Assembly (NCBI GenBank): GCA_016875535.1
Contig: VGPF01000009.1
Location: forward strand, 1-55,820
DNA: 55,820 bases
From: Chloroflexota bacterium
GTDB taxonomy: Bacteria > Chloroflexota > Dehalococcoidia > SHYB01
Direction of reading: 5' to 3'
In this document: positions 52,030-55,555 of the stretch, piece by piece
Position numbering within the stretch: position 1 is the first letter of the stretch
How the letters are laid out: every line of letters starts with the position of its first letter
Notes under the pieces: generated by a model
The model's input: the letters and a program-made list of their open reading frames with translations, nothing else
Told to the model about the DNA's origin: nothing
Database searches by the model: none
Translations under genes and position numbers: made by a program

Positions 52030-52104
52030 GCCGGTTCCACAAGAGACGCCCCTGGGATGCACGGTGTAGAATCTGGCCTATTCCCTGGAGACCTGGAGTC
52101 CCAC

Positions 52105-52527
52105 ATGGCAGTAGCCACAACCCGCCTGAAGCTCGAGACCAAGGGCGGCGGCCAGATCATCGAGATCACCCAGGAAGTCCTGAGGCGTGTGGCGGACTCC
52201 AAGATACGGCACGGCATCGTGACGGTCTTCCTCACCGGCACCACTGCGGGCGTGGGCATCATGGAGCTGGAGCCTGGGACGGTGAAGGACCTCCAGGCAG
52301 CCATGGAGCGCTTGGCCCCCAGGGGCGCGACCTACCAGCACAACGCCATAAACGCCGGGGAGACCAACGGCCACTCCCACCTCCAGGCCAGCCTCTTTGG
52401 GCAATCGCTCGTGGTCCCGGTGGAGGGCGGCAAGCCCGTCCTAGGAACGTGGCAGCGCATCATCGTCATGGACTTCGATTCCCGGTCGCGCACGAGGGAG
52501 ATCGTGGTGCAGACGATGGGCGAATAG
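52105..52527 (+). CDS. YjbQ/UPF0047-family protein
   Basis: A 140-residue protein of the YjbQ family: GGGQIIEITQEV, VTVFLTGTTAGVGIMELEPGTVKDL, NGHSHLQASLFGQSLVVPVEGGKPVLGTWQRIIVMDFD. The His residues and the GTWQ segment are the conserved trimer site. Some members have weak thiamine-phosphate synthase activity. ATG 52105 has GGAG upstream and begins the conserved fold. Confidence 0.92.
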   Translation: MAVATTRLKLETKGGGQIIEITQEVLRRVADSKIRHGIVTVFLTGTTAGVGIMELEPGTVKDLQAAMERLAPRGATYQHNAINAGETNGHSHLQASLFGQSLVVPVEGGKPVLGTWQRIIVMDFDSRSRTREIVVQTMGE

Positions 52528-52603: not shown

Positions 52604-53320
52604 ATGCAGCACAGGCCTCCCGCCGCTGAAGGCAAACCGTCCAGCCGCCAGGTTGTCCGCTACGCCGTCTACCGCCTTTCGCCCGAGTGGCGCAGGCTGG
52701 ATGGAGCGACGCGGGACGCCGGGAAGCGCGAGTTCGCGGCGGTCATCGGCGAGCACAACGATAGGATGATGATCCGCCCCTACAGCCTCACAGCCACTAG
52801 GGGAGACGCCGACTTCATGCTGTGGACTGTCGCCAACTCCCTGGACGATTTTCAGTCGCTCTACACGGGGCTCGCGCGGACGGGCCTGGGGAAGTACGCC
52901 ACCATCCCCTACTCCTACTTCGCCATGACGCGCCGCTCCATCTATATAGACAAGCACACCCACGAAGGCCAGGAGGGCGCGAGGCTGAAGATCCGCCCCG
53001 GCGGCGCGAAGTTCCTCTTCGTCTACCCCTTCGTGAAGTCGCGTGAGTGGTACGCCCTGCCCATGGCCGATCGCCAGCGCATGATGGACGAGCACATCGC
53101 CGTGGGCCACAAGTACCCGGGCATCCGCATCAACACCAGCTACTCTTTCGGCCTGGACGACCAGGAGTTCGTGGTGGCCTTTGAGGGAGACAACCCCAGC
53201 GAGTTCCTGGACCTGGTGATGGAGCTGCGCGACTCCCAGGCCAGCTGCTACACCATCCGCGATACGCCCAGCTTCACCGCAGCCGCCATGCCGCTGGACC
53301 AGCTGCTGGCGACTCTCTAG
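52604..53320 (+). CDS. HemQ/chlorite-dismutase-family protein
   Basis: A 238-residue protein of the dimeric-barrel heme family. Marks are FMLWTVANSLDDFQSLYTGLARTGLGKY, YPFVKSREWYALPMADRQRMMDEHIAVGHKYPG and SYSFGLDDQEFVVAFEGDNPSEFLDLVMELRD. In bacteria with the coproporphyrin route HemQ decarboxylates coproheme to heme b, which would complement the hem operon at 17-23 kb. ATG 52604 has GAGGTG upstream. The next gene starts nine bases after its stop. Confidence 0.9.
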   Translation: MQHRPPAAEGKPSSRQVVRYAVYRLSPEWRRLDGATRDAGKREFAAVIGEHNDRMMIRPYSLTATRGDADFMLWTVANSLDDFQSLYTGLARTGLGKYATIPYSYFAMTRRSIYIDKHTHEGQEGARLKIRPGGAKFLFVYPFVKSREWYALPMADRQRMMDEHIAVGHKYPGIRINTSYSFGLDDQEFVVAFEGDNPSEFLDLVMELRDSQASCYTIRDTPSFTAAAMPLDQLLATL

Positions 53321-53329
53321 GAGGCGATG

Positions 53330-53677
53330 ATGGCGAAGCACGTAACCTTTTATTGGAAGACCACCTGAACCACGTGCCGCAAGGCGAAGGCGTCGCTTTC
53401 GCAAAAGGGCGTGAAGTTCACCGAGCGCGAGCTGGCCAAGCAGCCCCTGACCCCGGATGAGATCAAGCGGCTCTCTGGCGGCAAGCCGAACGACCTGATT
53501 GATCGCAAGAAGCCCTCCTTCCGCGCCCTCGGCATCGGCGATAAGACCCTCTCCGATAAAGAGGCCATCGAACTGATGCTGAAGAACCCGAGCATCATCC
53601 GCCGCCCGATCTACGACGTGGACGGGCAGATCGTCCTCGGCGTGGACGAGGCGAAGCTGAAGAAGCTTCTTGGTTAG
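53330..53677 (+). CDS. ArsC/Spx-family selenoprotein, UTTC active site
   Basis: Decoding TGA 53366-53368, the frame from ATG 53330 gives 115 residues: MAKHVTFYWKTT, U13-T-T-C16, RKAKASLSQKGVKF, then ERELAKQPLTPDEIKRL, RALGIGDKTLSDKEAIELM and the ArsC-type IIRRPIYDVDGQIVLG. The TGA lies exactly at the catalytic first Cys of the ArsC/Spx CxxC motif. The ATG has GGAGG five bases upstream and just follows the hemQ gene. A normal caller would report only 53411-53677, without the active site. Likely a glutaredoxin-like reductase or arsenate-reductase relative. A stem-loop lies downstream at SECIS distance. Confidence 0.88.
53384..53402 (+). promoter_or_regulatory. Candidate SECIS of the ArsC-like gene
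   Basis: GCGAAG (53384-53389) pairs with TTTCGC (53397-53402), with one G-U pair, around the loop GCGTCGC. The loop starts 21 bases after the TGA. Confidence 0.5.
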
Positions 53678-53694: not shown

Positions 53695-54108
53695 GTGTCC
53701 GGATCGCAGTCTCGGCAAGAGGGATGCAGCCAACCCGCGCTGCCTGATCTGCTGGAGGGCATCGCGCGCTTCAACCGTGGCGAATACCACCCCTGCCATG
53801 AGATCGTCGAAGCCCTGTGGAAGCGCACGCCCGGCCCTGTCCGCGATCTCTACCAGGGCATCATCCAGCTCGCTATCGCCCTCCACCACACGCGCAGCGG
53901 CAACTTCGCCGGCGCCACGGCGATGTACGAGAAGGCCATCGCCAAGCTCGTGCCCCTTGAGCCGGCCTGTCAGGGCGTGGATGTAGCGGGCCTGGCGGCC
54001 CAGGCGCGCGCGGCGCAATCGGCCGTCGCGGCCCTCGGCGCGGGCGGCCTTTCGCGCTTCGAGTGGAGCCGCGCGCCGAAGATCAGCCTGCGCGACACCT
54101 CGGTATAA
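53695..54108 (+). CDS. DUF309 protein
   Basis: A 137-residue helical protein with the DUF309 core: FNRGEYHPCHEIVEALWKRTPGPVRDLYQGIIQLAIALHHTRSGNFAGA. The H-E-x-x-E-x-x-W motif and YQGIIQ...A.HH suggest a metal-binding four-helix fold. Function unknown. It starts at GTG 53695, 17 bases after the selenoprotein gene, and ends seven bases before tldD, so it is in an operon. Confidence 0.87.
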   Translation: MSGSQSRQEGCSQPALPDLLEGIARFNRGEYHPCHEIVEALWKRTPGPVRDLYQGIIQLAIALHHTRSGNFAGATAMYEKAIAKLVPLEPACQGVDVAGLAAQARAAQSAVAALGAGGLSRFEWSRAPKISLRDTSV

Positions 54109-54115
54109 TGCGCCC

Positions 54116-55555
54116 ATGAAAGAGTTGCTGATGCGCGCCCTGGATACCGCCGTGAAGCGCGGCGCCTCCTATGCCGATGTCCGCTACCTGGAGACGAAGC
54201 AGGAAGTCGTCATCGTCAAGGATAACCGCATCGAGGCGGTGACCCGGAACGTGACTCGCGGCTTCGGCGTGCGCGTCATCGCCAACGGCGGTTGGGGCTT
54301 CGCCAGCAGTTCCCGGCTGGACGCCAGGGAGATGGACACGGTGGCGGCCACCGCGGTGCGCATCGCCCAGGCTTCGTCCTCCGTCCTCCGGGATCCGGTG
54401 AACATCGGCGAGCCGTACAAGATCGTCGCGACCTACCGGACACCGGTGCAGCGCGACCCCTTCGCCGTAAGCGCGGAGGCCAAGGCCGCTCTCCTCTTGG
54501 AGGCGACGCGGCAGATGACCAAGGTGAAGCACATCGTCACCGGGACGGCGAACGCGGAGGTCTTGCGGCACCACAAGATCTTCGCCAGCACCGAGGGAAG
54601 CTACATCGAGCAGACGCTCTACGAGACGGGTTGCGCCATAGAGGCGACGGCCGTTGACGGGAGCGAGGTGCAGAACCGTAGCTACCCCAACAGCATCGGC
54701 CGCCACCAGGGCTGCGAGGGCTGGGAGCTGGTGGAGCGCTACGACCTCCCCGGGAACGCGACGCGAATCGCGGAAGAGGCCTCCGCCTTGCTCAAGGCGA
54801 AGCAGTGTCCCTCCGGGGAGACGACGGTGATCCTGGACGGCTCGCAGACGGCGCTCCAGGTGCACGAGTCCTGCGGCCATCCCATCGAGCTCGACCGCGT
54901 CTTCGGCTCAGAGGCCGCCTTCGCAGGGACGAGCTTCCTCACCACGGAGAAGCTCGGCACGTTCAAGTATGGGTCGGATGCGGTGAACATGACGATAGAC
55001 GCGACTATCCCCGGAGGACTCGGCACCTTCGGTTTCGATGATGAAGGCGTTCCCGCCCAGCGCGCCGATATCGTGAAGCGCGGCCTCTTCGTCGGCTACC
55101 TCACCTCCCGGGAGACGGCGGCGAAGCTGGGCTGGCGCAGCAACGGCGCGATGCGCGCCAGCAATTGGGACCGCCTGCCCATCATCCGCATGACGAATGT
55201 GAACCTGGAGCCCGGCCCCTGGCGCCTGGACGACCTCATCGCCGATACGGACAGGGGCATCTATATGCAGACGAACCGCAGCTGGAGCATTGACGATAAG
55301 CGGCTGAACTTCCAGTTCGGGACGGAGATCGCCTGGGAGATCAAGAACGGCAAGCTGGGCGAGATGCTGAAGAACGCCACCTACACCGGGATCACGCCGC
55401 AGTTCTGGGGCTCATGCGACGCCGTTTGCGGCGGCGACGAATGGCTGGTCTGGGGCGTGCCGAACTGCGGCAAGGGCCAGCCGGAGCAGGTGGGCCACGT
55501 GGGCCACGGCGCCGCGCCCGCGCGCTTCCGCAACGTTCGCGTCGGCATGATGTAG
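54116..55555 (+). CDS. tldD: TldD-family metalloprotease
   Basis: A 479-residue protease subunit. RGASYADVRYLETKQEVVIVKDNRIE opens the fold. The zinc motif is HESCGH (H250, E251, H254). GGLGTFGFDDEGVPAQRADIVKRGLFVGYLTSRETAAKL follows. TldD pairs with PmbA/TldE to degrade or trim peptides, for example microcin and PqqA-like precursors. No tldE partner is seen before the window ends. It is last in the hemQ-arsC-DUF309-tldD run. Confidence 0.92.
   Translation: MKELLMRALDTAVKRGASYADVRYLETKQEVVIVKDNRIEAVTRNVTRGFGVRVIANGGWGFASSSRLDAREMDTVAATAVRIAQASSSVLRDPVNIGEPYKIVATYRTPVQRDPFAVSAEAKAALLLEATRQMTKVKHIVTGTANAEVLRHHKIFASTEGSYIEQTLYETGCAIEATAVDGSEVQNRSYPNSIGRHQGCEGWELVERYDLPGNATRIAEEASALLKAKQCPSGETTVILDGSQTALQVHESCGHPIELDRVFGSEAAFAGTSFLTTEKLGTFKYGSDAVNMTIDATIPGGLGTFGFDDEGVPAQRADIVKRGLFVGYLTSRETAAKLGWRSNGAMRASNWDRLPIIRMTNVNLEPGPWRLDDLIADTDRGIYMQTNRSWSIDDKRLNFQFGTEIAWEIKNGKLGEMLKNATYTGITPQFWGSCDAVCGGDEWLVWGVPNCGKGQPEQVGHVGHGAAPARFRNVRVGMM

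Follow-up and report, generated by a model that had tools for sequence, protein, structure and literature searches.

A conserved ArsC/Spx-fold gene with an in-frame TGA, predicted to encode a U-T-T-C selenoprotein, in a Dehalococcoidia genome

Arsenate reductase-like proteins containing selenocysteine (Sec) are listed in several earlier studies, among them the 2005 Sargasso Sea study, whose accessible text includes a UxxS arsenate reductase (PMC1088965). A 2006 study, as far as its available text goes, lists ArsC-like selenoproteins in, among others, Desulfotalea and Desulfuromonas (PMC1794560). The GOS survey of 2008, in the part open to us, lists arsenate reductase 2, assigned to cd03032, with a UxxC motif and 42 Sec sequences (PMC2398784), and a UxxC protein resembling arsenate reductase appears in the accessible portions of two reviews (PMC13188914, PMC9312934), in one of them as NF041106. 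A full-text literature search that covered few subscription journals and no supplements returned no account of such a protein from Dehalococcoidia and no Sec-containing Spx. UxxC ArsC-like selenoproteins were thus already listed in 2008, under a domain, cd03032, that we take to be ArsC_Spx, and the protein described here joins a known kind. With it, Dehalococcoidia gain a well-supported selenoprotein.

The window analyzed is the whole stretch of 55,820 nucleotides of contig VGPF01000009.1 (assembly GCA_016875535.1, Chloroflexota, class Dehalococcoidia), read on the forward strand; it is contig C9 of a host genome of 2.5 Mb that is 98% complete. Judged from its sequence, one gene near the end of the window encodes a selenoprotein in which an in-frame TGA is read as Sec, a reading that is well supported and conserved. 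The features to which the text refers are as follows.

52057–52527, plus strand: UPF0047/YjbQ gene upstream of hemQ (PF01894, TIGR00149; also in G001)
52604–53320, plus strand: hemQ-like gene (chlorite dismutase family), upstream (PF06778, 193 bits; gene order shared with G001 and G123)
53319–53324, plus strand: AGGAGG, a ribosome-binding site that overlaps the stop codon of hemQ (read directly)
53330–53677, plus strand: predicted ArsC/Spx-fold selenoprotein gene, 115 residues, active site U13-T-T-C16 (PF03960, Spx homology, AlphaFold/Foldseek)
53366–53368, plus strand: in-frame TGA read as Sec, residue 13 (same codon in relatives; Cys in other inspected rows)
53384–53402, plus strand: SECIS-type hairpin with an 8-bp stem (53384–53391 with 53395–53402) and apical loop GTC at 53392–53394 (alignment, covariation, synonymous-null test)
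53695–54108, plus strand: DUF309 gene, downstream (PF03745, 77.7 bits; gene order shared with G123)
54116–55555, plus strand: tldD-like metalloprotease gene, downstream (PF19289, 141.8 bits; gene order shared with G123)

The gene starts at ATG 53330 and ends with TAG at 53675–53677 on the plus strand. With TGA translated as Sec, the product has 115 residues and begins MAKHVTFYWKTTUTTCRKAK; the TGA is codon 13 and replaces the first Cys of the CxxC motif, giving U-T-T-C. The AGGAGG sequence sits 5 bases 5' of the ATG. Pfam assigns the product to PF03960 (ArsC) with 62.4 bits against a cut-off of 24, and this match spans residues 8–112, so homology lies on both sides of the TGA. An earlier note on this DNA had held that the TGA encodes the first Cys of an ArsC/Spx CxxC and that the ribosome site and the family N-terminus lie 5' of it, and both statements were borne out: the codon is in frame at residue 13, AGGAGG lies at 53319–53324, and the PF03960 match begins at residue 8. 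Under translation table 11, the only open reading frame called here has 88 residues from GTG 53411, and since it leaves out the active site, the gene would be missed by standard annotation. That call is what would be expected if translation really stopped at the TGA, or if the TGA were an error of sequencing, and what follows were a pseudogene or encoded a shorter protein starting at GTG 53411. We give this reading practically no credence, because dozens of independent genomes have a TGA at this codon, flanked on either side by protein homology, the first strand of the fold precedes the TGA and the catalytic motif lies at it, and synonymous positions 3' of the TGA are constrained.

The same TGA codon occurs in a genome of the same genus (G001), in one of the same family with 70% identity (G123), and in dozens more. 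A phylum set of 400 genomes yielded 75 matches at E<=0.001 and 45 at E<=1e-8; TGA was kept in 41 of these 45, and the remaining four comprised two Cys forms (G186, G230), one TGA-free match (G302), and one split gene (G257). Residue inspection of TGA-free phylum matches covers those at E<=1e-8 except G302, and three short, weak TGA matches (G002, G015, G106) fall below that limit and outside the 41 of 45. In a class set of 294 genomes, of which 42 matched at E<=1e-12, TGA was found in 37 and Cys in four (G422, G498, G510, G633), with G257 again split. A broader contig scan reaching Bacillota and Atribacteria gave TGA in 21 of 25 loci, two of which were already in the phylum count (L052 = G123, L053 = G074); the TGA loci include Syntrophomonadaceae, Desulfotomaculaceae, Pelotomaculum, and an Atribacteria MAG, and the Cys forms were three Brevibacillus and one Peptococcaceae. 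When the alignment to Cys homologues that the earlier note had proposed was made, Cys (TGC or TGT) aligned with the TGA in 10 inspected rows (L020, L046, L057, L058, L060, L075, L099, L106, L113, L126). A tree of 62 rows, built on few columns and midpoint-rooted, requires seven changes between Sec and Cys, five of which are forced by well-supported branches. Sec, not Cys, is therefore the usual form of this ArsC/Spx branch in the genomes sampled. Separately, G257:C10:16902-17245 holds an ArsC/Spx-like gene split over two frames, a TGA half and a C-terminal half, reflecting either assembly error or decay, and two further matches (G540:C1:1183122-1183460, G593:C73:26111-26452) contain two TGA codons, or TGA plus TAG, within the matched frame, for which a second Sec, a frameshift, or decay are candidate explanations.

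A profile search of the host's own genome recovered selB (334.3 bits, cut-off 242.25), selA (541.8 bits, cut-off 267.9), and selD (370.6 bits, cut-off 125). A tRNA-Sec scored 66.1 bits against a cut-off of 47, and ARAGORN also calls tRNA-SeC. The Sec gene search that had been suggested for this locus thus found selA, selB, selD, and tRNA-Sec all present. The host selD (L050:1471-2430) has an in-frame TGA of its own, at residue 21 of the translated stretch, and two peroxiredoxin-like proteins elsewhere in the genome carry an in-frame TGA at the active site (L128, G000:C62:7959-8372; L132, G000:C7:52509-52841). A PF03960 search detected no second ArsC-family gene in the host genome.

Stop codon use bears on whether TGA might stand for another amino acid, for instance Trp or Cys, throughout the genome. 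The 44 ORFs predicted in the window with a length of 150 aa or more end in TAG (27), TAA (10), and TGA (7), and the rarity of TGA as a stop would fit such a code. TGA nevertheless still ends those seven ORFs, as it does 10 of 44 at further loci of the same genome that overlap in part, the selA and selB frames contain no internal TGA, tRNA-Sec and SelB are present, and homologues have Cys at the TGA. Reassignment is thus contradicted by TGA-terminated genes and was rejected as exceedingly improbable. Four Sec relatives of the gene themselves terminate in TGA. As an observation in its own right, TAG is the preferred stop and TGA a rare one in this window, whose genome is GC-rich and has TGA as a Sec codon.

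SelB (E<=1e-60) was found in 41 of 41 Sec carriers of the phylum set versus 311 of 400 genomes overall (Fisher p 3e-5), and in the class set in 36 of 37 Sec carriers and one of four Cys carriers. Over the union of the sets, 70 of 71 Sec carriers have SelB versus two of six Cys carriers, counts that omit G302, in which the residue of the TGA-free match was uninspected, and G257, with its two-frame split. G464, a genome that is 90% complete, has a Sec form (G464:C180:7721-8062, L124) with the standard hairpin, and no SelB was found in it; in G603, a partial SelB at a contig end scores below the family cut-off. That Cys replacement is driven by SelB loss is not claimed: the Fisher value of p 5.4e-5 ignores relatedness, and a tree-paired test, in which two of four independent pairs agree and none disagree, gives p 0.5. 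With four pairs on the tree, the association of the Cys form with SelB absence is suggestive only.

The coding sequence 3' of the TGA contains the SECIS-type hairpin. The earlier note had placed a stem-loop 21 bases after the TGA; the stem-loop itself stands, whereas the distance does not, as the stem begins 15 bases and the loop 23 bases from the TGA. Thirty-two Sec rows with about this hairpin, a selection that favours the result, were aligned without gaps; in this alignment the loop base G24 is present in 32 of 32 rows, 85.5% of cells are paired, and four of the eight stem pairs vary on both sides. Its covariation score is 0.233, whereas shuffled versions average 0.122 and no slid register scores above 0.147. 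A synonymous-codon null test was applied to all distinct rows with loci in hand, without pre-selection for the hairpin; this null leaves relatedness among the rows in place. The 48 Chloroflexota Sec rows form 5.69 of 8 pairs versus 3.90 in synonymous draws (z 11.8) and 19 other Sec rows form 6.79 versus 4.41 (z 9.6), whereas the same test gives z 0.6 for Chloroflexota Cys rows (n=6) and z 1.9 for other Cys rows (n=4). G occupies the loop position in 43 of 48 Chloroflexota Sec rows and 19 of 19 other Sec rows, and in three of six Chloroflexota and none of four other Cys rows. Given that its pairing exceeds synonymous expectation by a wide margin in Sec rows and not in Cys rows, the hairpin is read as a SECIS element.

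Single-sequence folding was rejected as proof of a SECIS, since the window hairpin alone is not significant (z -1.34; 21 of 200 shuffles fold equally well), and the family-wide synonymous test and covariation were used instead. Among synonymous versions of the window hairpin, 11% are as stable. A 51-base fold of the window gives z -3.52 against its synonymous versions, and over 29 Sec rows the same fold has no stability above synonymous versions (mean z -0.33). The SECIS folding foreseen in the earlier note accordingly yielded a hairpin that is conserved and covarying across the family and, in the window by itself, not significant. The 8-bp stem is missing at these columns in some Sec rows (family f38, G206, G094, G603, G496, G417, and others). 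The f38 rows carry a different hairpin with loop CGTGC, and G206 and G094 have neither the standard nor the f38-type hairpin.

By homology and structure prediction, the product is assigned an ArsC/Spx thioredoxin-like fold. Besides PF03960, Pfam reports Glutaredoxin (PF00462) with 38.3 bits. An AlphaFold model built on 21 rows has pLDDT 86 and pTM 0.71, and Foldseek matches it to Spx (3gfk, TM 0.84), YffB (1rw1, TM 0.87), and ArsC-like proteins. In the model, residue 13 closes the loop before helix 14–25. Sec/Cys13, Cys16, Leu23, Arg92, and Pro93 are invariant in the 21 rows.

Two rival functions follow from this fold. In the first, the protein would be a selenium-based switch of the Spx/MgsR type, in which the U-C pair senses oxidants and the oxidized form binds the RNA polymerase alpha-CTD and redirects transcription. 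Spx chains are the closest solved structures by sequence (best 3l78, E 1.4e-14) and have the best Foldseek E-values, the RPI motif is present (R92-P93-I94), and the TIGR01617 score of 72.2 lies narrowly under the cut-off of 75.05, which four Sec relatives (L029, L056, L066, L072) exceed. Nevertheless, the protein stays under the cut-offs of the Spx models, NF002459 included (65.5 against 123), and the hemQ/tldD context gives no regulatory hint. Gly52, which the accessible parts of two sources describe as required or important for Spx to bind the alpha-CTD (PMC3386922, PMC12822559), aligns with Lys52 here, nearby gaps leaving some doubt about that column. A switch of this type is therefore improbable for the window protein. 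Elsewhere on the tree, a UxxC protein from a Bacillota MAG (L072:4953-5360) groups with Spx-like proteins of Brevibacillus, retains the Spx Gly52 and RRPI, exceeds TIGR01617, and has the 8-bp hairpin; it is a candidate selenium-based Spx.

The second rival, an ArsC-type arsenate reductase that depends on selenium, draws on PF03960 ArsC family membership and on the name arsenate reductase 2 under which UxxC relatives are published, as the accessible text has it (PMC2398784). The window protein nonetheless scores 36.9 bits with TIGR00014 (arsC) against a cut-off of 106.05, no ars gene is among the four neighbours scanned, and in the Foldseek search E. coli ArsC matches less well than Spx and YffB. 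We regard this function as quite improbable, and the name arsenate reductase, under which this kind of protein is published, could well be mistaken.

Pfam matches to the neighbouring genes confirmed the run with HemQ, DUF309, and TldD that had been recognized from the sequence alone. Since AGGAGG overlaps the stop codon of the hemQ-like gene, the two genes are probably translated together. The hemQ-like gene is probably co-transcribed with the Sec gene. The hemQ-sec-DUF309-tldD order was seen only within the family, fully in G123 and partly in G001, where the contig ends in the Sec gene; tblastn (E<=1e-5) detected none of the four neighbours in the other Chloroflexota or the searched Bacillota and Atribacteria loci. 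This neighbourhood is thus specific to the bacterial family and says little about function. Pfam scans of 20 adjacent ORFs revealed no partner common across families, and an assignment of function from gene neighbours was rejected on both grounds. The recurrent neighbours were ADH_zinc_N upstream at four loci and RraA-like downstream at two in family f38, and PolyA_pol upstream at two in family f141. In f38, the gene immediately preceding the Sec gene at L081, L085, L087, and L096 encodes the zinc-binding dehydrogenase, and L081 and L096 have the RraA-like gene downstream.

Outside Chloroflexota, the UxxC gene lies directly 3' of a PrxU-type peroxiredoxin gene in 8 of 21 loci with at least 500 bases upstream, all eight in Bacillota (L056:4354-5321, L054, L063, L065, L067, L070, L071, L076). 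The gap between the two genes is 13–34 bases, and all eight peroxiredoxins have TGA at the active site, which reads FTFVUPTE in the tandem loci. Their identity as PrxU was tested on L056, which scores 364.6 bits with NF040737 against 270. At L066, a PrxU-like gene lies on the other strand, and L068 retains a C-terminal PrxU remnant. These tandems suggest a role in peroxide reduction and offer a directly testable partner for this kind of protein. PrxU adjoined the gene in no Chloroflexota locus examined, so the connection with peroxiredoxin is carried over from a different phylum.

We consider it likely that the gene encodes a selenoprotein made through SelB and the hairpin and that the product is a selenol/thiol oxidoreductase, with peroxide or disulfide defence as its likeliest role and perhaps as an electron donor to peroxiredoxins. 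The Bacillota PrxU tandems and the host's own Sec peroxiredoxin-like proteins make this function the most likely one. SelB with Sec-tRNA(Sec) would recognize the hairpin after the UGA and insert Sec at residue 13, a step to which the conservation, the covariation, and the complete Sec gene set point. As the UxxC motif and the fold suggest for the cycle, substrate, and reductant, the selenolate of Sec, located where helix 1 begins, would attack an oxidized substrate, which may be a disulfide, a sulfenic or selenenic acid, or a peroxide; Cys16 would resolve the product through an intramolecular selenenylsulfide, and thioredoxin or a small thiol would then reset the protein. A bolder and unlikely extension would make the family the donor in a peroxide-reducing couple built wholly on selenium, with Sec peroxiredoxin as its other half, and some branches, such as L072, Spx-type selenium switches, the latter part fitting the window protein poorly because its Gly52 is Lys.

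Among described systems, ArsC (TIGR00014) and the UxxS arsenate reductase selenoproteins share with the window protein the fold and the position of the catalytic Cys or Sec, but its motif is UxxC rather than UxxS and its 36.9 bits stand against 106.05. Spx/MgsR regulators (TIGR01617, NF002459) resemble it in fold, CxxC position, and RPI motif, whereas it has Sec for the first Cys and Lys for Gly52 and scores 72.2 versus 75.05 and 65.5 versus 123, respectively. PrxU (NF040737) belongs to a different protein family; it is the adjoining selenoprotein in eight Bacillota loci and a possible redox partner of the relatives, but does not adjoin the gene in the Chloroflexota loci examined. NF041106 (ArsC_rel_Se_1, ArsC family (seleno)protein), as far as its accessible description goes (PMC13188914), likewise combines an ArsC fold with UxxC and either Sec or Cys, although the window protein reaches 30.1 bits with this model and ten relatives 21.6–41.1 bits, against a cut-off of 85. 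Finally, the GOS arsenate reductase 2, known from marine metagenome reads and likened here by motif and description as given in the accessible text, is an ArsC-like protein with U-x-x-C at its active site (PMC2398784), as is the protein predicted for this Dehalococcoidia genome.
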